Source: Hypomyces perniciosus (Eukaryota; Ascomycota; Sordariomycetes; Hypocreales; Hypocreaceae). Taken from it: a stretch of DNA of 64,000 bases. The stretch spans positions 977,501 through 1,041,500 of the forward strand of contig SPDT01000013.1 in NCBI GenBank assembly GCA_008477525.1, given 5' to 3'. Below, piece after piece: positions 27,312 to 45,927 of this stretch. Every line of letters begins with the position of its first letter. The first letter of the stretch is position 1. Under the pieces are notes generated by a model. It ran no database searches, was not told the DNA's origin, and saw nothing but the letters and a program-made list of their open reading frames with translations. A program made the translations under genes and the position numbers.

Positions 27312-30300
27312 CTAGCTGATAATTACCCATTCAGCCACTGTTGCGCCAGTCCCATTCTTCATCTGTATGTCTACAGGGTCAAGTGCTTGATTACCAATGA
27401 TGAGTAATGAGGCATATCGAGGAACCGGCACAGGCGTTACGAGGGTCACATTTGTCGTGTTCCCAATGGGGATGACAATGGCATCAAGATTAGTGCTTGC
27501 TGCGATGTAAGGGTCAGACTGCCTAATATTGGACAAGGATGTTACAACATCATAGTCTGAACTTTTATTCGTGGACATATAAGCGGCAGCCGGGTCGTGA
27601 AGCGTCTTGTTATGGAAGATAACTGTGGCATTGATCGGAGGGGCCTGGGCCCAGTTGAAGTGGAAGCCCGTGACCAAAGCGCCCACGTCTTTTTCAGCAA
27701 GAGTGACTGTAACGGCGCTCATATTCGCCGCAAAAGCAGGCTGCCATTTTGTAGATGTTGCACCGTCTACTGCTGCAATAGGGAATTGCCCAGGCACGGT
27801 TTTTTCGGACGATTGTGCTGGCCGGCACTGCACGAGGTTACCAGGAGCCGTGTTCTGGGAGCCGATCTGTCGGTTTGGAACGACGACAGAGCCAGTAACT
27901 GGAAGCTGGTAAACAGTTGCGTTGCTTTGCGTTCCATAGCGAATAGTGATGGACTCGTTAGCGAATCGTTGATCCGCGACATCAAGAGGTGCGGTGTTTG
28001 ATGCCCGACTCAAAATTGTATGAGTGTAATTGGACCAAGCTGAAATAGGCCAGCCGCGCCAGTAGAAAGTTCGGTACTTCAAGTAGGGGATCTGCGGCGG
28101 CAAGTTTGGCTCGATATGAAGGTAGTCGTCGGGAAGCAGACGCAGTCCAAGGTAGCCAAAGAGAACGACCTGGTTGGCACCACCGTGGCCGGTGAGGAAG
28201 GGGTACGCCGGATGTGTGCCTCCATTGATAGTAGCATTGTCAACTAGTTGCTCGGATAACTGATAGAATGGCGCGCGTGCGTACGGCTTGTACGAATATT
28301 GAGCGTATGTGTATGCCGAGCAACCAGAGGGAGACATCTCATTGGCAACGATGGAGAAGAACGCCCAGGTCATGGCAGGTCCGTCCGACGACTGCTTATT
28401 TGCATACTGGTTCATTGCGTCAGTAAAATTCGGCTCATCGAGGAATAGTTCAACGAGATACTCACGTAGTCCAGGTCATTGAGTGAATCCTGGGCACTGT
28501 AGTTGGTGGTGTATGATAGTGGATAAGTGTTCAAAATCACGTCCGCCTGCTTGACCACGGCGCTACCGTTCATTGTTGTGAACTCAAGTGTCACACCCAT
28601 TTTCACGGATAACTAGCACGTTGGAGGCCATTTCAGCCCAGGTTTGATTCTCCTCTAAGCCGAATTGCTGGCGAAAGGCGTTTGCGTGCAACAAGGTCTC
28701 CGCAATAAGCGGCATTGTGAAGCCGCCAGCGTCGACATGATTTGCATATTCGTCCTAAGTTTGTTAGTTGTGCAGTGATGAAATCGTAGGTCATTCGGCT
28801 TACGGGATCAGTCATGTTGGTCAACGTCCAGGAAGACCCATTGGGCTTGAGCAAGCTTGCATAGAGTTCGGCGATCGAATTGTACACAGGAAAGAGGTTC
28901 TCTTTGAAGAACTGTGTGTCACCACTCGCCACCCATTGGTTGATCATGGACAGCCCAATGTCTCCGTTCAAATGGTACTCATAATCCCAGCAAGGGCCAA
29001 CAGCAGTGCAATTGCCGAAGCGACCACTGGTCCACGGGAATACAGCAGCTGATTCAGAGAAATGAGTGCCGTTTTGGGAGCTGGTGAAGGCAGTCTTGAT
29101 GTTTTCCTTAGCTTGAGCATATTTCGCCAGACGATAGTTGGTGATTCGCTGTGCTGACTCCGGGTGAGACGCAACCAGGCCAGGTTGCATCCAGAGGTCG
29201 GCGTCCCAGAATATTTGTCCTGAATATGAGTCTGACGTCAAGCCACCGACAGAGATGCTGTCAACATTGACAGAAGCGCCATTGGTCTTGTTGATGGCAT
29301 TTCTTCCCACTGTATTCTGCAGAAGATAGTATGTGTTCGTGACCGCGATGATGGCGGAGTCGATAATATATTGATCTGCAGGAAGAGTACCATTCTCGGG
29401 GAAGGCATAATGATCGACCGAGTCCTCAGGCATAACGGTTGCCCATTCTGTTACGTGGGACCGAAGTGACTTAGCATACCCGTTGGTTAATGCAGCGAGT
29501 GCAGCTTCTCTGGCAATTTGCTTCGGTTCCGCGAAGGCATCCGAGGAGGCAGCCCCAACATACTTGGTGACTCGCACTGCACGTCCAGCGGAGAACTTCA
29601 CAGGGACGGCCTGCGCAATTGATGAGTCGTTGGCATTCACGTAGGGCTTCCCACAAACGAGCCGTCGAGCGGATAAATCCACACCTTGAGAGGCTGTCAG
29701 GTTGGCGAAGACGTAGGCTGTGACATTCGAGACGCCAATTGGACTGACAGCTGAGAAGATTGCGCCGTCTTCCTGGCCAGACTCGACAAAAGCTGTGCGC
29801 ACGGCGGAGTATCCGTCCAGCACGTTGATAATTGTCGCATTGGAATCCGTAGTCGGCACGATTTCCATATCCACCACGGCCTGGTTGACGTACAGCTTGT
29901 TGGCGAAGATGCGGTACCTGATCTTATAAGAGCCTTTTTTGGCAGCTGGTGTCCATTTGTATGACCAGCTCAGAACACCAGCTTTGAAGTCATAAGCTGA
30001 TCTGAAGTGGGAGATGGTCCGATTATCTACCGTCGCATCCAGGTAATTGCCGTCTCCAAGGTCCAGTATGAGTCCACCCCAGTGTGGGATCCCACTGATG
30101 ATACTTTCGTAACCATACTGCGACAGCCATGGGAAGTTGGTTCCATTGGTTGTTGGCTGAGCGTCGAAGAAGCCTGCAATGGTTGCGAAGGATTGACGCC
30201 TTGAATACAAGGGCCAACCGTTGATCACATCACCAAGCTCGGCATCGTCAAGCTCAAAGAAAGGTCCTACGCTGGCAACATTTATGCCCAGATAGCCATT

Positions 30301-30597
30301 GGCCACAGAACCGCGGGACTGAAAGCGTCCCTGTTCCAGCTTGGTCGTAGAAAGAAGCCAATTGGCCTCATCCCACGTTACCCCAGGAAACTCCGTTTCA
30401 TACACATTATTGCTAGAATTGGCCCCAGAATGAGGCCCGGCATGCCTGCCCATACACTTAGCAATGCGATCCTCAATATTGGCGCCATGGGCCAAACTGA
30501 GGAGTTGCAACAGGAGTGCCAGTGACTGGTTGACAATCGTTAGGCTTCGCCTTCTCTAGGCTGGAGAACGAGGGGGAGGGCTCACTTTAGACCGCAT
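27312..30597 (-). CDS. treA: Secreted acid trehalase (GH65), with one-base frameshift
   Basis: Exons 30597-30586, 30525-28804, 28754-28466 and 28406-27312 join in phase except for one extra base in exon 3. A corrected protein would have about 1038 residues, like Aspergillus acid trehalases. The tiny first exon (MRSK) splices onto SLALLLQLLSLAHGA to make a signal peptide. Then come the GH65 N-terminal domain (FPGVTWDEANWLLS, GNGYLG-type NGYLGINVASVG), the barrel motif FWDADLWMQPG and HVDAGGFTMPLIAET. The C-terminal block is GHGGANQVVLFGYLGLR ... YRTFYWRGWPISAWSNYTH. It hydrolyses external trehalose to glucose and carries many N-glycosylation sites. Exon 3 is 289 nt where 288 would keep phase. 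The break is at a GGG run (plus 28596-28598), between VIREN and VTLEFTTMNG. Either a sequencing error or a truncating lesion. The divergent-side neighbour is a disaccharide-type permease. Confidence 0.9.
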
Positions 30598-31730
30598 TTT
30601 GCAGCCTTGTAGTCGTCTTGGCACGAGAAAGATGGGCTAATTGATATATCTTGGGATCTTCAAGGCACAACACATGAACCATTTCGCGCAGTTTTCCAAT
30701 TCCTCGAGTGAATAGAAGTCCAATTTGCGACGGACGTGATGAAGAGGACGAACAAGGGGGCTGGCTATACACAGAATTTATATGCGAATCAGCGAAAAGC
30801 CGACACGGACATCCACATCCTGTCCTGTCTCCCAGATCCACCTATGGAAATAACCCAAAGCGCTATAAATGAGTCTCCGCAGCTCAGCAGGGAAACTTGA
30901 GGCCGATCGGTAAGCAACAACGAGTCGTAGTAGTCTTAGTACGGAGTATTAAATGCTAATTAGTACCCATGCACCCATGCACTAAGCTGGTGGAGCTATG
31001 ACATCGTGGCAAAGCCACACAGAGAACTGGGGAGCGTTTTGGTGTTGTCCTTCCCCAGTTCTCCCCAGTATAACTAAGCTAAAAGTTTACGGAAATGACT
31101 GTTAAAAGCTTGAAAGATCGTCGCTGATGACGTGTTTGCCCTGTTTCGGATTTTCCATCTCCTGCCGGTCTCCCATAACAGTTCACCCCACAAGCCACTC
31201 CGTCCTCGTATGTAAATAGTGCCTGGATGACGACACTATGCCTACTTGATACTGACGGTATGACCTGCACTCTTTATTTTTGTTACGCAAGGAAACCTAA
31301 GATAATAGAGAAACCCAACTGTGAGCCTTCATTAGGGTAGACTATCAGATTGAAGGGAGTTGGTACGTAGAAGGGCAACAAAAAAGCCGTATTTTACGAG
31401 GTTTTTACATCAGTAGGACCAGGTTTACACTTCAGATCAAGTCTTTGACCGCCACTAAGAGTAATGATGCGAAGCGACATGACCACCGTCAGACGCCCTC
31501 TCAACTAATTATATGTATATGTCTTAACATGCCTCGACTGATCGATCCAATAAAGACGGAGGGGTGGCTCTTAAGAGGTTTACCTTGCACAAGAAGGATG
31601 CATCACAGGGCACTTCGGCCTTTTATCGGCCTGATTGAGAACCAGAACGCGCGTAGTTGAGAGAACAAGAAGTTTAGCCCAACTCAACTATCTCTTGCTA
31701 ACAAAGCGTCAGTGCTAGTGTATGCATTAA
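30598..31730. other. Intergenic region between acid trehalase and permease
   Basis: Trehalase promoter side. No gene recognised. Microrepeat TACGGAGTA at about 30945. Confidence 0.45.
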
Positions 31731-33407
31731 TTACACTCGGAGATCCTCATCTGTGTCGTCGAACTTATAGGAGCTGAACTTCCTAGCAGGCACACCCTTC
31801 TCAAACATAATATCCAACTCTTCATAAGTCCTGTCCTTGGTTTCAGGCTAAAATCACGAACTATTAGCTTAGTCTCCAATATCCGAGGTTTGCGATATAC
31901 TCACCAATCTAAAAATACACCAGATGAGAGAAAAGATGGAGATGCCACCATACAAGAACTCAATCTTCGCTCCGATGCCCGCCGCACCGGGGTTAAGCAG
32001 ATATGGTCCGATGACCGACGTTACTAGTCCTGTGAGTGCACTGAATATTGTGGCAATAGCAATCGTCTTCGATCTCAGTTTCGTGGATGGTGTCTCGCAG
32101 ACAACAACATAGGTGAGTGGACCGAGTGTCATCTGCCAGACGAACTGCAGCACTATGAGTAGGGTAGCCTGTGCCCAACGATAGCTGGGGTTGGTCTGAT
32201 AGTCTTGTGCGAAGCACAATAAGGCGACAGTGAAGAGGACAGCGACCATGAAACCGAGGCCAACAATATACGCAGGGCGGCGACCAAGGTAGATGAGCGG
32301 AATGGCGGAGAGGAGAGTACCAAGAAAGCCAACTCCATTAAGGCCAACTCCCATATCGAAAGATTGCACGCTGTTAAGGCCGATCTGCTCAAAGAAATAA
32401 GTCGCAAAGCCGACAGGGTTGCCGTTGAAGTTCTGGATGACGAACAGCAAGATGCAAATCTCTAAGCGACGCCTGTTTGACCCCTTCCAGCAATCGGTAT
32501 AACTTGAGCCGACTTCCAGCTCCCGTTCCAACATATCGGTTTTTATCATCATGGCAAGCGTTTCCTTTGTGTTGATGCCGGAGTTACTTTGCACGAGTTT
32601 CTTGAGGGAGCGCTCCGCTTCCTCCATCTTGTTGTGCCGAATGAGCCACCATGGCGACTCTGGCGCAAAGTACAAACCTGAGAGCAGCAAGACAGGCCAA
32701 ATCCACTGCAACGCGAAAGGAATGCGATATGCCCACTCATCGAGGCGGGTGATGAAGCCACGGGTTACACCAGTTTGAATGAACTGCCCCATTACATAGC
32801 ACAGGTTGATGTAGCCTGTGAGGAAACCACGGAGGCTCAAAGGCAACACCTCGGATGCGTATGTTGCCGCAAGGACGTGGTAGCTGCCCCAAACGATACC
32901 ACTGAGGTACGAACTTGCTGTCAAGACACCAATCGAATTGGCGAAGAATTGCATGAAGGTCAAAATGGCGGTCATTACAAGGGAGACGGCCAATGTCCAT
33001 TTGCGGCCGAACTTCTCCAGAGGATACGCGACGAGGTATGCACCGATAATCTGGCCAACTAAACTGCCCATGCTCATGCCGACTTGCCACTGCGGTGGGA
33101 TTTGGTAGCCTCCGTGGTCTGCGCCATAGTCAAAACCGAAATGCTGCTGGAAGGCGGGCAGCGCGAAGAAGTTGCCGCTGATCTCGATGTCATAAGCGCG
33201 CATAATGATGCTGAGAGATATGAACATTGACCAAAAAACGCCTTTACGGTAGAGCTTCAAAGCCTCCCAGGTGCCCAGCCGGTGCTCCTGGGCAGTACCC
33301 CGACTAGCCATTGCGGCATTGACCTCGCCGAGCTTGTCGGTGGCTTCTGACTGATACTCGGCCATGTTGCTCGTGACATTTTCGAGCGTGGTTGTTTCCT
33401 TCTCCAT
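31731..33407 (-). CDS. MFS sugar permease, maltose/alpha-glucoside type
   Basis: Exons 33407-31905 and 31847-31731 (57-bp intron) give 539 residues with about 12 membrane helices. Sugar-porter signatures are KFGRKW (loop 2-3), the loop-6 PESPWWLIRHNKMEEAERSL, LGRRP (loop 8-9), and PETKDRTYEELD at the end, which appears only after splicing. The segment NFNGNPVGFATYFFEQ in TM7 is typical of fungal MAL-type alpha-glucoside:H+ symporters, so maltose, trehalose or a related disaccharide is likely. Plasma membrane. It sits between acid trehalase and a GH95 fucosidase, fitting sugar scavenging. A TATA box is about 110 bp upstream. Confidence 0.92.
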
Positions 33408-33511
33408 GATGGTGGATGTTGATGGTTGTGGGTATCAGGAGAGACCTGGGTGTTGATGTCCGGTAAGGTCATCAGCCATTTTCCAGAACGACTGGTAGGT
33501 GTTGATGCCAT

Positions 33512-33524
33512 CATATTTATATAT
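33512..33524 (-). promoter_or_regulatory. TATA box of the sugar permease gene
   Basis: ATATATAAATA on the minus strand, about 110 bp before the ATG. Confidence 0.6.
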
Positions 33525-34998
33525 CCATGGATATGGCACTATTGCCTAGCATCCCGAACAAAAGGGGCAAGGTGGGGGATTCCATGGGGAAATCTGACAG
33601 CTCTACGGAGTAGAGGCTAGCAAGATCCTGGGGAAGCGGCAATAGCCACCTGCGGTTAGAGTCTTGACTGCCTGGAGACGCGGGGAGAGAAATTCCTAGG
33701 GTCTAGTGACACTTCTGTTGTCGCGGCGGCTACTATTGACATGTCAGGGTGTAGATTGTTGCCACTAGTGGTCTGGAATCATTGGTGTTGTCAGAGAAAA
33801 CGCTTTCACAGGTGCCACATCGTATTGGAGATGTTAGTCCGCGCTCAAAGTTCGGGTTTTCACTGGTTCGTAGCATTTCCAGATATTTGTCCGATCTTTT
33901 CTCCGCGCCTTTGTCCATCCGTCCAACGCGTTCTTCATGAAGCGAGTCACACCACATGGTCGCCGCTGCATTGTATCGTGGACTGATTGAGGCACTAAGT
34001 ATCTCATGCCTTTCTTCTAAAGGCTAACTCGAATTGCGTTGTGTTTGGATCCAATTGTTTCGGATGCATTTATATTGGCCGACGGCAACGACGGGGTGAT
34101 CCGTAATTACTAGCTAAGATCAAGTCCCTTTGTCGACATGACTCTTCCGAAACTAGCAGAACACTCAAATTCTTTCAGGGCTTTGAGGGTATTCGAGCAA
34201 TTCTGGGAACAGTTATTACCCTGCAAACTTCAGAAGGCCTATGATATCTTATCCATGGGTGTTTTATGTCGGCTTGTACTATGATCAAGTGGGGATTGTT
34301 GTGGCAGCGAAAAAAACCTCTGCTACTTATTTCTTCTCTGCCATTACAGAACTTCCTTCCTTCGGGTAATAAGCCCTTAAAATCCGAATTCAGTTACTGT
34401 TCATCAGTAGACTGCAATTCCATTCAATCTTCCTAAACGAGGGGAATTTCTCGGCTCGATATCCGGACTCACTTAAATCTCCAAGCCTTGATCCATTCCA
34501 TTCCAGACTACTTCGTACTCCGTATTGCCTTGTATTAATATGAGTTCCCCTGCTATTGAAACCCCGCCCGCTAATCTGCCGTCGGGATATATCTACCGTC
34601 GGCCCATTCGGAAAAAGGATCTTCAAGTGATGCAGAGAAACAAATTGGTTGCGAAATCCCAAGACAGTGACAGCATTCCCGTTGGGCCTTGAGCTCTTGG
34701 TGAAATCGTCAACGCTAGAAATATTTTCAACAGAAAACCAATCCTAGAGCGAGCCATTGGCGACTGGTCGAGAAGCGAAGACGCGAATGGCCGACAAGAA
34801 GGCAATCTAACTGGCACGTTCATTGGTCGAGGAAGAAGGCATAATTCACCCCAATCATCACGGCCTTCAAGCTCACATATTTGAGTAACGGTGGTGGTTC
34901 ACCAAATCGGCAGTACTACCAGCAGTTCAACCTCCAATTCACCACAGCCAGAAGAGAATACCTTCTTCGAATCGGCCCACAGATTGTTGCTTTACGAT
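33525..34998. other. Divergent intergenic region between permease and GH95
   Basis: No gene recognised. Microrepeats at 33603 (CTACGGAGTAG) and 34503-34515 (TACTTCGTACTCCGTA, the two motif variants fused). Confidence 0.5.
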
Positions 34999-37380
34999 AT
35001 GGAGCGAAAAGCGACCGGCGAGCACCGCCTTCATTACACCACCCCTTCTACAACTTTCCCCACCAGTCTGCCCCTGGGGAACGGCCGCCTCGCCGCCTCG
35101 GTTCTCTCTTCGCCTGCCCAAGAAACCTTCATTTTGAACGAAGTCACTTTCTGGTCCGGAGCGCCGCATGTCGCAGGCTCTGGACTAGTCTCACAAGCTT
35201 CTGACCCCAAGGCCGAGCTGCGGGAAACACAGCGCTGTTTTCTTGCTGACGACTTGGCCCAAGGGAAGAAGAGGTCGCAGAATTACCTCAGAAGCAATAA
35301 GCTCAATTTTGGCACGAACTTGGGTGTAGGAAGACTCGACATTACTGTGGTTGGCCATGGAGATGCCAGGGACGTGCGCGGGTACGAGAGAGAGCTACGG
35401 CTCGATGAGGCTATAGCCGTGGCGAAATACGAGAGAAATGGGCACTGGTTTCGGAGAAGTAGTTTTGTGAGCTGTGCACACCAGGTGCTTGTGATGAACT
35501 TTGAGAGCAGCGATCTGGAAGATCTCAAGGTCATCGTCAGCGTGCGGGGCGAAAATGAGGCATTTGCTGCTAGGGCTCATCATGGGAGACTGGAGTTTGA
35601 TGCACAAGCGCTCGAGATAGTGCATAGTGATGGAACTTGCGGTATCAGGGGCCATGGAGTGGTTGCTGCCCAAGTGGATGAAGGCAACGTCGAAAGTAGA
35701 GATGGAAAGCTTGTCGTCACGGGAAAGAAGAGGGTCACACTTTTGCTGGCCTTCAATACCAACTTTGAACAGAGTGGCGATGCTTGGAGAGAGCAATCAT
35801 CGCGGCAAGTTGACGAAGCTTTGAGAATCTCTGCCACTGATCTCCTCGCGGCACATCTGGCCGACTACCAACCTCTCTATCGCCGGACAAGCATCACTCT
35901 CGGTCCCAGTTCGGACTCTACAACAAGTCTGCCTACAGATCAGCGTCGCCAGAAATTTGAGCCCTCTGGATACGCTGACTTGGGCATGTTCGCTCTCTAC
36001 TTTCACTATGCCCGGTATCTTACTATCGCTGGTACACGAGCCAACTCTCCCTTGCCGCTACATCTACAGGGCTTGTGGAACGACGGAGAGGCATGTCGAA
36101 TGGGATGGAGTTGCGATTACCACCTCGATGTGAACACCCAGATGAATTACTTCTCCATACTTCCCAGTGCGCTACCTGAACTCATGCAACCTCTCATCTC
36201 CTATCTTACATCTCTCGCCGAAGCTGGTGAAGATGCTGCACGAGTCTGCTACGGCTGCAATGGTTGGGTCGCCCATGTCTTCAGTAATATATGGGGCTTC
36301 GCAGACCCAGGATGGGAGGTGGATTACGGACTCAATGTAACGGGCGGGTTGTGGATGGCGAGCCATCTGATCGAACTGTACGAGTACACGCTTGACGAGG
36401 CTCTTCTGGCACAAACAGCATACCCTATCTTGAAGGGAGCGGCAGAATTCTTCCTGGATTACATGATCGAGGATCCGGAGACTGGCTGGCTGCTCACAGG
36501 CCCGTCTGTCAGCCCCGAAAACAGCTTCTTCGTGATTGGCAAGGACGGAAAGAAGGAGGAGCATCATGCGTGTCTGTCGCCCACGCTTGATGTCTTGCTT
36601 CTACGTGACCTCTTTGCCTTCTGTCTACACGCTGCAAAACGCCTCAATATTGACTCTACTTTCGCTGAGCGAGTGCAAGCTGCACAGGCAAAATTGCCGC
36701 CATTCCAAATTGGCAAACACGGGCAGCTTCAAGAGTGGCTACACGACTATGAAGAGGCGCAGCCATTCCACCGCCATCTCTCGCACACCATGGCACTCTG
36801 CCGGTCGGCCCTGGTGTCTATGCGACACCAGCCGGAACTGGCAAAGGCCGTGGACGCGGCACTCGAACGAAGGCAAGCTCGCGATGACTTAGAGGATATT
36901 GAGTTTACAGCGGCCTTATTTGGTATTAACTACGCGCGTTTGGGTGATGAGGAGAAGGCCGTGGCCCAAATCGGTCATCTGGTGGGTGAGCTCAGTTTCG
37001 ACAATCTGCTTAGCTACAGCAAGCCCGGTGTAGCGGGCGCGGAGTGCGATATATTCGTTATTGATGGTAATTATGGTGGTGCAGCGGCCATCATGGAAAT
37101 GCTGGTGCGTTCGCTCATACCGGACCTTGGAGGGGTGGTTGAGGTGGACTTGCTCCCATCTCTGCCAGCGGCGTGGTCCGAGGGAACGGCCAAGGGCCTG
37201 CGGATCAGAGGTAACATTGAGATTGATTTGCAATGGTCTGATGGGAAACTTGATAGGGCGATATTCAAGTCATATTCAGCTGGGTCTATGGCGGTATATT
37301 ACGACGAGCACTGCTACAAGGCATCATACAAGGCAAATGAGATAATCGAGCTGGGGCCTTGTCTAAAGATGGTTAAGTAA
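34999..37380 (+). CDS. GH95 alpha-L-fucosidase (or related alpha-L-glycosidase), intronless
   Basis: 793 residues from the ATG at 34999. An open frame extends further upstream but only from non-ATG codons. Family signatures are PLGNGRLAASV (residues about 25-35), ILNEVTFWSG, LQGLWND and SVSPENSF with the expected acid Glu at E507. HRHLSHTMALC and the late IDGNYGGAAAIMEML follow, with Asp D689. GH95 enzymes cleave terminal alpha-L-fucose (some act on L-galactose) by inversion, using an Asn pair and an Asp to activate water. In the Asn pair block this protein has D377-V-N379 where the characterised Bifidobacterium enzyme has N-x-N. No signal peptide is seen, so it may be intracellular or unconventionally exported. 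It is divergent from the permease. Confidence 0.92.
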   Translation: MERKATGEHRLHYTTPSTTFPTSLPLGNGRLAASVLSSPAQETFILNEVTFWSGAPHVAGSGLVSQASDPKAELRETQRCFLADDLAQGKKRSQNYLRSNKLNFGTNLGVGRLDITVVGHGDARDVRGYERELRLDEAIAVAKYERNGHWFRRSSFVSCAHQVLVMNFESSDLEDLKVIVSVRGENEAFAARAHHGRLEFDAQALEIVHSDGTCGIRGHGVVAAQVDEGNVESRDGKLVVTGKKRVTLLLAFNTNFEQSGDAWREQSSRQVDEALRISATDLLAAHLADYQPLYRRTSITLGPSSDSTTSLPTDQRRQKFEPSGYADLGMFALYFHYARYLTIAGTRANSPLPLHLQGLWNDGEACRMGWSCDYHLDVNTQMNYFSILPSALPELMQPLISYLTSLAEAGEDAARVCYGCNGWVAHVFSNIWGFADPGWEVDYGLNVTGGLWMASHLIELYEYTLDEALLAQTAYPILKGAAEFFLDYMIEDPETGWLLTGPSVSPENSFFVIGKDGKKEEHHACLSPTLDVLLLRDLFAFCLHAAKRLNIDSTFAERVQAAQAKLPPFQIGKHGQLQEWLHDYEEAQPFHRHLSHTMALCRSALVSMRHQPELAKAVDAALERRQARDDLEDIEFTAALFGINYARLGDEEKAVAQIGHLVGELSFDNLLSYSKPGVAGAECDIFVIDGNYGGAAAIMEMLVRSLIPDLGGVVEVDLLPSLPAAWSEGTAKGLRIRGNIEIDLQWSDGKLDRAIFKSYSAGSMAVYYDEHCYKASYKANEIIELGPCLKMVK

Positions 37381-37730
37381 TAATATCAGATACTGCTTGG
37401 TGATTGTGTATTCAGCAGTCTGGATCATCTAATACCCGCTGGATATTCCAGATCACATCCTGTGTCTGTTCTGTGCAGTTCTCGGATATTATTGTGGACG
37501 GGCGGAATGAGACCTTGCCTCGCTGATATATTCCCGTTCCTGATACTACAGGTTTCAGATCCTTCTGCCTTTTCCTACATAAACACTGCCAAGAAGTGGC
37601 TACAATCAGACATAGCAACGCGCATCGTGTTAGCTGGACCTATATCCCCACTGGGTGATACGACATCACTGCGAAGTGACTGGGGTCAACTCGGTCTGGA
37701 GTGACAGTTCAGCTCATTCAACACCCAAGA
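37381..37730. other. Convergent intergenic region
   Basis: 3' flanks of GH95 and the CHR transporter. Nothing further seen. Confidence 0.5.
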
Positions 37731-39412
37731 TTATCTTGATACAACAGCATACCAAATTAGCCCCAGTGCTGCCCCCATTACAATTGCGATCGGAGGACTG
37801 ACCCCAAGCCAGTAGCCCCCAACATAACTCGTGGCCGTGATAACCACCCACCACGGATCCAACGCAAGGCTCGTACCTTGTTGGAATTCCTGGTCTATAT
37901 ATCCGGTTTGCCAGATGCGGTAGACCGCAGTATAGATAAGCCCTATCGCAGCAGCATTGACACCTCTAAGAAAGGACTTGACCCATCTAAGACCGCGAAC
38001 TGCACTCCAAATTCCCATTGTGCCATGGACCGTAATAAGACCAGGGACAAAAATGCCAATAAACCCTAATGCAGCCCCAGCAGCAGAGTTGTATCCCCCG
38101 TTTATTGCCGTCAGGGCACCGAGGTATACTGCAAAATTGAAATTTGGCCCTGGGAAGCTCTGTTGAATAGCCAACCCTATCAGAAAATCCCGAGTGCTCA
38201 CCCAATTCTCTGCCACGACATATTCGCGTAGAAGTGGGATCACAACCGGTCCACCACCAAAAATAATTGTGCCAGCAAGGTACATGTTCGAAAAGAAGCT
38301 AAATAGAAGCAGCTTTGTTTGCAAGGTGCTACGCAGAACCATAATGACGACGAAGGTTAGAAGAAAGAACGCAAGAATTCCAAGACCAAACTGCCATGAG
38401 AACTCGAGTTTGTGCTCCGGTGGGACGATTCGTGGTTCGGTTCCAGAGAGAGGAAGCGGTAGTTGATCATTTTCCCTCTCCAAAGTATTCGGGTTCCCGG
38501 CTCCGATATCCCTGGTTGATTCAGAGATAGTATGCAAATTGGCCTCTCCAGCTTCTGATTCCCTCTTGCGACTATACAGTCTCCTGATGGACTTCAATAC
38601 AATTGCCACCCTTCGGACGGGTCCGTGGAGCCAGCGCAGATCGAAAACTACAGCAGCGAGTCCGGCAAGGAACATAAGAAGCGGGAAGTACCAGAGAGCG
38701 TTGTATAACATGCCGGCTGTAGCGCCGAGGAACACAAGAATGAGTGTTAGCCTATCCGTAATGGCCTTCTCTGATAGCTGTACGGCAGCAAGGGCGATCA
38801 CGCCGACAGTGGAGGCATTAAGACCTGATAGGAGTGCGTAGACTGGCCGAGGAAGTGACGATCCAATATGTGATACTCCAAGGGATAGACCATACATCCC
38901 TATAGCTCCAGGCAAGCTATCCAAAATCAGTCAGTAAACACCAGATGCTGATTTGAGTACCTCGCTTGAATGAGTTTTACCTCCATGTCAAAAAACCAAG
39001 CGCAGCCGGTAGAGAGCCAGCGTGAATTAGGTTAATACAATAAAGCATTTTGGTGCTGCCAGGGCCAGAGAAGGCCTGACACACACTGAAGATTTCTTGA
39101 TACTGCGTATCACTTAGCATTTTCTGGCCACGGCCACCCTACGAATGAGTTCATACCACCTGCTCATCTATCCATTGGAGCTTTGTTACAAACTTGTCAT
39201 GAATCTGCATACAGGCGATTAGCATAGTGCTTTCTTGCAGGTCGCATAATGGTAGAAAACGAATATCAGTATGCCATTTGGTAACTTACAATCTTGAAAT
39301 GAACTGGGGGCCCTCCGAAGGAAGTGAAACCGAGATGGTAGTTTTGCCGAATGGTGTTCCAGAATTTGCCGCGGGGCCTATCGGCTTCCTGGCTTCCCCG
39401 TTGGTGTGCCAT
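37731..39412 (-). CDS. CHR-family chromate/anion transporter, four exons
   Basis: Exons 39412-39290, 39204-39157, 39102-38981 and 38916-37731 join in phase to 492 residues. It has the two-domain (long) CHR layout. The N-half starts LGFTSFGGPPVHFKI, followed by YQEIFSVCQAFSGPGSTKM and LPGAIGMYGLSLG. The C-half has AGTIIFGGGPVVIPLLREYV and QQSFPGPNFNFAVYLGA. The repeated GG(G)P-V and PGP motifs are the hallmark. A hydrophilic linker of about 60 residues rich in Glu/Arg separates the halves. Fungal members expel or take up chromate/sulfate-like anions in the plasma membrane; direction cannot be predicted. The second intron was placed to end at ACGCAG because this restores EQ(V)YQE and uses a good branch site; a shorter 33-nt alternative is unlikely. 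Confidence 0.9.
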
Positions 39413-45766: not shown

Positions 45767-45900
45767 TCCTCTGTGGCGCAATTGGCTAGCGCGTCGTAAG
45801 TTTCCAGAGCAAGTTTCTGTCCTTGTAATAAGTATAATACTAATGAAGAACATAGTGACTGTTAATCAGGAGGTTGGAAGTTCGAGCCTTCCCGGAGGAG
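45767..45900 (+). tRNA. tRNA-Asn(GTT) interrupted by a 60-nt insert at position 28/29
   Basis: After removing 45796-45855 the remaining 74 nt fold as a full cloverleaf. Acceptor TCCTCTG/CGGAGGA, D stem GCGC/GCGC, anticodon stem TCTGA/TCAGG, loop CTGTTAA (anticodon GTT), variable loop AGGTT, T stem GGAAG/CTTCC with loop TTCGAGC, discriminator G45900. A box (TGGCGCAATTGG) and B box (GTTCGAGCC) are intact, and a T5 terminator follows at 45923. The insert is not at the canonical 37/38 intron site. It has spliceosomal consensus ends and branch (see the next entry). The tRNA call is firm; whether this locus makes a functional tRNA is open. Confidence 0.85.
45796..45855 (+). other. Spliceosomal-type intron-like insert inside tRNA-Asn
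   Basis: 60 nt with donor GTAAGT (45796), branch-like TACTAAT (45839-45845) and acceptor ATAG (45852-45855). Exact removal restores base pairs 28-42 and 29-41 of the anticodon stem. Confidence 0.75.
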
Positions 45901-45922: not shown

Positions 45923-45927
45923 TTTTT
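45923..45927 (+). terminator. RNA polymerase III terminator (T5)
   Basis: TTTTT located 23 nt after the tRNA 3' end. Confidence 0.6.

Follow-up and report, generated by a model that had tools for sequence, protein, structure and literature searches.

Can a nuclear tRNA gene carry an intron that is removed by the spliceosome? The introns of nuclear tRNAs and those of mRNAs are presented to students as two distinct systems, and the canonical eukaryotic tRNA intron lies at position 37/38 and is cut by the Sen endonuclease. The question is raised by a tRNA-Asn(GTT) gene at positions 45767-45900 of the window, by which we mean the whole 64,000-nt stretch of DNA that was analysed (C14:977501-1041500 of a genome of 44.0 Mb in 23 contigs). 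The gene carries a 60-nt insert between tRNA positions 28 and 29, and tRNA-Asn(GTT) without this insert is present in at least six copies elsewhere in the same genome (a lower bound). Judging from the sequence, we put a probability of roughly 0.7 on the reading that this is a nuclear tRNA-Asn gene with a spliceosomal GT-AG intron at 28/29, that it belongs to a small set together with three tRNA-Trp(CCA) genes interrupted at 26/27, and that these genes are spliced by the spliceosome. The locus is laid out as follows.

45767..45795, plus strand: exon 1 of tRNA-Asn(GTT), tRNA positions 1-28 (29 nt, with 20a), the same as the opening 29 nt of the six paralogues.
45774..45785, plus strand: A box of the Pol III internal promoter, TGGCGCAATTGG, read from the sequence.
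45796..45855, plus strand: 60-nt GT...AG insert of the spliceosomal intron type, missing from the six paralogues, ends unambiguous.
45796..45801, plus strand: 5' splice site GTAAGT, from the sequence and the motif test.
45838..45844, plus strand: branch-site-like TACTAAT with the presumed branch A at 45843, followed by 12 nt to the intron end, from the sequence and the motif test.
45853..45855, plus strand: 3' splice site TAG, from the sequence.
45856..45900, plus strand: exon 2 of tRNA-Asn(GTT), positions 29-73, identical to the six paralogues.
45861..45863, plus strand: anticodon GTT; with the insert removed 5/5 anticodon-stem pairs form and the loop reads CTGTTAA.
45879..45888, plus strand: B box AGTTCGAGCC; the A-to-B start distance is 105, or 45 without the insert.
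45923..45927, plus strand: T5 run, presumed Pol III terminator, from the sequence.

The joined exons are identical to each of the six uninterrupted paralogues at 74/74 positions, which confirms the interrupted tRNA-Asn(GTT) as a real observation and bears out the original prediction of a gene split at 28/29. The bases beside the insert differ, so it cannot slide: the boundary ambiguity is 0 nt, the insert is exactly 45796-45855 and it ends exactly in GT and AG. The 60-nt flanks differ, as compared by eye, among the six paralogues and between these and the window locus. As its flanks are unlike those of the paralogues, the window gene did not arise by recent duplication of one of them together with its surroundings. 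Elsewhere in the window, positions 27312-38930 hold a cluster of GH65-type and GH95 glycosidases, a sugar transporter and a chromate transporter, with the best named protein matches in Penicillium for the GH95 enzyme and in Ilyonectria for the chromate transporter. The protein matches are spread over Penicillium, Trichoderma, Ilyonectria and other genera, and we describe the fungus no more closely than as a filamentous ascomycete. The segment 52001-56000 shows a strong strand skew (GC skew 0.18, AT skew -0.26), and no tandem repeats were found within it.

The insert had been described as carrying fungal spliceosomal signals, and both its coordinates and its motifs are as claimed. It starts with the U2-type 5' splice site GTAAGT, ends in TAG and contains ACTAAT at 12 nt from the end. 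For comparison we took the introns of fungal U3 genes, for which the available text of PMC5832005 gives GT-AG ends and an RCTRAY branch site typically 6-36 nt from the end. Using these branch and distance limits we shuffled the single bases of the insert and counted how often the combination of GT[AG]NG, CT[AG]A[CT] at 6-36 nt before the end and a final AG arose, which was the case in 17 of 400,000 shuffles. A competing AAG lies soon after the branch site, so that two AG were counted there.

In order to find further interrupted tRNA genes we searched the genome for patterns in which the GG of the A box and the GTTC of the B box are separated by 75-105 nt, a spacing that is 34 in the uninterrupted Asn gene. 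The four A-box starts that we used gave 32 + 5 + 15 + 6 = 58 rows against 9, 12, 12 and 17 for the reversed-pattern controls. One pair of rows had a common start, which left 57 distinct matches. Only 8 of the 57 showed the full 12/12 pairs of acceptor and T stem, the next best value being 9. One of these eight is the window gene and three lie on C10; in all four, an anticodon stem of 4-5 pairs remains once a stretch from GT over a branch site to AG is excised. The same excision succeeded in none of the other four full-pairing matches, nor in any of the 47 chance matches to which it was applied. Of the other four, one is a tRNA-Ala with a 51-nt intron and three resemble tRNAs with a long variable arm and introns. 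The tRNA-Ala(AGC) at C8:947543 was considered as a fifth case and rejected, its 51-nt intron being placed at 37/38; the gene (C8:947463-947726) has an unusual D arm beside the intron read in this way. The window gene had at first stood as a single isolated case, a view that has to be given up now that it is one of four found. A separate genome search with the Rfam tRNA model scored 63 of 2316 candidates and is no census. It drew attention to two regions: contig C8, of 4.2 Mb, opens (C8:4331-17023) with tRNA clusters that resemble those of C17 and have an organelle-like make-up, perhaps a nuclear copy of mitochondrial DNA or an assembly join, and at C2:2701-14391 a tRNA match occurs five times, every 2904-2906 bases, on a contig of tandem units.

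The three genes on C10 are tRNA-Trp(CCA) genes (about 1439229-1440896), which we call W1 (minus strand), W2 and W3 (both plus strand). Their common layout is GGGGGGCTGGCGCAACGGTAGCGCG, then the insert, then TCAGATTCCAG, 9 nt and TCCTGA. Each of them contains two kinds of intron, namely a GT-AG insert after G26 (26/27) and a 9-nt intron at 37/38 for which pairing to the anticodon region is predicted. The inserts of W1, W2 and W3 measure 54, 55 and 54 nt, start with GTATGT, GTATGT and GTATGC and end in CAG, CAG and TAG, respectively. In each of them CTAATA is present and 11 nt follow its branch A, so that the branch motif (ACTAAT or GCTAAT) also falls within the 6-36 nt range, and the motif set described above was reached in 8, 3 and 10 of 400,000 shuffles. 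The inserts can slide by 1 nt, and a single placement yields GT..AG. In W1 and W2 our excision script placed GTATG below other GT starts that lie 4 nt downstream and are absent from W3. We preferred the GTATG start because it is common to W1-W3, matches the consensus and gives a mature form of 72 nt. In W3 a rival CAG lies 3 nt ahead of the chosen TAG, and two AG were counted there as well. Once spliced, all three genes form 20 of 21 cloverleaf pairs, with an A31-C39 mismatch in the mature form of 3/3 copies. That the assembly or the sequencing produced these inserts is hardly credible: a single assembly was used, but consensus splice signals recur at four loci on two contigs, and three of the inserts have diverged from one another.

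We then compared the three Trp genes part by part. For the pairs W1-W2, W1-W3 and W2-W3 exon 1 is identical at 25/25 positions each and exon 2 at 56, 54 and 54 of 56, and the inserts are identical at only 38/54, 28/53 and 31/54 positions. Identity over the 150-nt flanks is 32-55% on the upstream side and 36-44% on the downstream side, values that are rough as the flanks of W2 and W3 overlap each other's genes. Within the inserts 12 of the 15 columns in splice motifs are invariant compared to 12 of the 40 remaining columns (Fisher p = 0.0011). The three inserts are paralogues and as such do not count as independent observations. Since the exons and the splice motifs were kept and the remainder of the inserts diverged, we infer that selection probably preserved the tRNA and its splice signals, while most of the rest was free to change. 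The same pattern could be produced by gene conversion only if it were limited to the exon parts that flank each insert, which we regard as contrived.

These data also bear on the most serious competitor for the window gene, namely that it is a dead copy: a spliceosomal-type intron would have landed in a surplus tRNA-Asn gene whose transcript would never become a mature tRNA, regardless of what is true of the Trp genes. The gene is one of at least seven, and as six copies are intact its loss would be tolerated. Furthermore, part of PMC4090602 treats a short insertion in the D or T arm of one among many synonymous eukaryotic tRNA genes as the supposed mark of a pseudogene. Against this stand the intact splice signals and exons that show none of the decay expected of a pseudogene (74/74 positions in the Asn gene, 79 of 81 exon columns invariant among the Trp genes). 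Excision of the inserts leaves a cloverleaf with the right anticodon, as in a functional tRNA gene, and the Pol III boxes and a T-run terminator are in place. The first T5 run begins 22 nt past the window gene, within the 10-22 nt seen past the six paralogues, and T runs are found downstream of all four genes. The Trp genes show, in the same genome, that such introns occur alongside conserved exons while the introns themselves drift. A dead gene had been offered as one outcome from the start; that idea comes out of the comparison weakened, and we consider it unlikely for the Asn copy, though still a contender to be reckoned with.

A BLAST search of the genome with the joined Trp exons (E<=10) found no loci beyond W1-W3. 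In addition we searched with a pattern for an uninterrupted tRNA-Trp (D loop GGTA, loop YTCCAR, a 37/38 intron of up to about 58 nt) that matches all three spliced genes. Genome-wide it gave 8 matches compared to 15 for the reversed-pattern control, and none of the 8 is tRNA-like: they form at most 13 of 21 cloverleaf pairs and have no Rfam tRNA match at E<=10. In one BLAST and one pattern search of one assembly, then, no uninterrupted tRNA-Trp gene appeared. If no such gene exists, the fungus needs these introns removed in order to live. The Trp junction had 0 matches in viral contigs. One match in a prokaryote collection was rejected as an ordinary bacterial tRNA-Asn.

Another possibility is that the inserts belong with the non-canonical tRNA introns, like those of red algae and nucleomorphs, and that the tRNA splicing endonuclease cuts them out. 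Such introns are known in some eukaryotes; the parts of PMC4090602 at hand describe tRNA introns of 3-24 nt in the Guillardia nucleomorph and tie the red-algal ones to a bulge-helix-bulge and the splicing endonuclease. They resemble the inserts studied here in taking unusual positions in nuclear-type tRNA genes, but differ in that GT-AG signals are not described for them in those parts of the paper. Our inserts likewise share with canonical introns that they interrupt tRNA genes (and the Trp genes have a canonical 37/38 intron of 9 nt as well), yet they lie at 28/29 (Asn) or 26/27 (Trp) instead of 37/38 and carry GT-AG signals. At the new junctions the bulge-helix-bulge reaches 5-6 of 10 pairs, which 37-94% of shuffled inserts match and which is not above chance. 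As the 37/38 control itself reaches at most 7/10, these scores point only weakly away from the endonuclease. Within the Trp inserts conservation is highest at the splice signals, and precise GT/AG ends are not expected of an endonuclease. The earlier judgement that the Asn insert does not fit a normal 37/38 intron stands, and cutting by the endonuclease appears improbable.

The original prediction had also raised the insertion of a mobile, introner-like intron, i.e. a recent copy from a dispersed intron family. The clean insertion and the empty sites in the paralogues would fit such an element, and introner-like elements are likewise spliceosomal introns with empty sites elsewhere. The difference is that we found one copy and no target-site duplication, with 0 nt common to the insert ends and the flanks. 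A genome search with the 60-nt insert matched only itself at E<=10; very common words were skipped and diverged copies could escape such a search. Beyond the splice motifs the Trp inserts are, by eye, unlike the Asn insert, and they look related to one another through gene duplication. We consider a mobile origin very improbable. The missing target duplication would suit reverse splicing as the origin of the Asn insert.

Standard tools see these genes poorly. Against the window gene with its insert the Rfam tRNA model gave a partial match of 16.7 bits at a lax threshold (the gathering score is 29), and a scan of the full window at gathering thresholds listed nothing. ARAGORN without introns found no gene. 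With introns allowed, three settings returned Ile(aat), no gene and Trp(cca). We rejected these parses, as well as the Pro(tgg) and Glu(ttc) calls at the Trp genes, because the Asn exons are set by the paralogues and the Trp exons by the agreement of three copies. W2 clears the Rfam tRNA cut-off with 33.5 bits, but in that match all five anticodon-stem pairs are broken, and W1 and W3, in the same stretch, had no Rfam tRNA listing at E<=10.

We returned to the preferred reading, spliceosomal removal of the inserts, and looked for precedents. Reportedly, a 1993 study described mRNA-type introns in fungal nuclear 18S rRNA genes; these are alike in interrupting non-coding RNA genes and differ in that the host is 18S rRNA and not a tRNA. 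The nearest accepted precedent are the introns of fungal U3 and U6, which are spliceosomal, lie inside small structured RNA genes and occur in copies with and without the intron, but these genes are not tRNAs. In the available text of PMC5832005 U3 is called a Pol III gene with intron-bearing and intron-less copies, and among small structured RNAs frequent interruption by an intron is given as known for U3 and U6 only. Among the matches listed for the open PMC literature, spliceosomal introns were reported in U3, U6 and rRNA genes and none in nuclear tRNA genes, and a 2026 review (PMC13149111, in the part seen) lists tRNA splicing as spliceosome-independent. The curated set of 284 tRNA genes of A. 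niger, as given in an extract of PMC6108506, contains 1 gene for Trp, 3 for Asn and 4 for Cys compared to 8-24 for other amino acids. That Trp and Asn are among the low counts is suggestive only, as Cys is low too and six intact Asn genes are present here. In the same A. niger work 14 ARAGORN models were discarded because their introns exceeded 100 nt.

For the four genes we infer the following order of steps, from transcription to function. Pol III would transcribe each gene from the A and B boxes, whose starts lie 105-107 nt apart in the interrupted genes, through the insert to the downstream T run; the longest T run within the four inserts is 3 and there is no T4 run, so Pol III could read through. 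The major spliceosome would recognise GTAAGT or GTATG and CTAAT and remove the insert as a lariat, and the joined exons would then fold into the cloverleaf. In the Trp transcripts alone the tRNA endonuclease would also take out the 9-nt intron at 37/38.

On its own the Asn copy is a curiosity, and together with the Trp genes it becomes a testable case for tRNAs made by the spliceosome. The data suggest that this fungus may use the machinery of mRNA splicing for some of its tRNAs. The boldest version, for which we see even odds, is that every cytosolic tRNA-Trp and with it all reading of UGG depends on the spliceosome, that one tRNA is matured by both machines, that others such as the Asn copy are being drawn in, and that the pattern is perhaps widespread but missed because tRNA finders handle such genes badly. 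This could explain tRNA genes that are missing or miscalled in annotated fungal genomes. Since the genome still has identical empty sites, it would also offer a clear look at intron gain. If the reading is true, splicing can act on Pol III transcripts of about 135 nt that presumably lack an mRNA cap, and a tRNA gene that requires the spliceosome would break the divide between tRNA and mRNA introns and couple the translation of a codon to pre-mRNA splicing.
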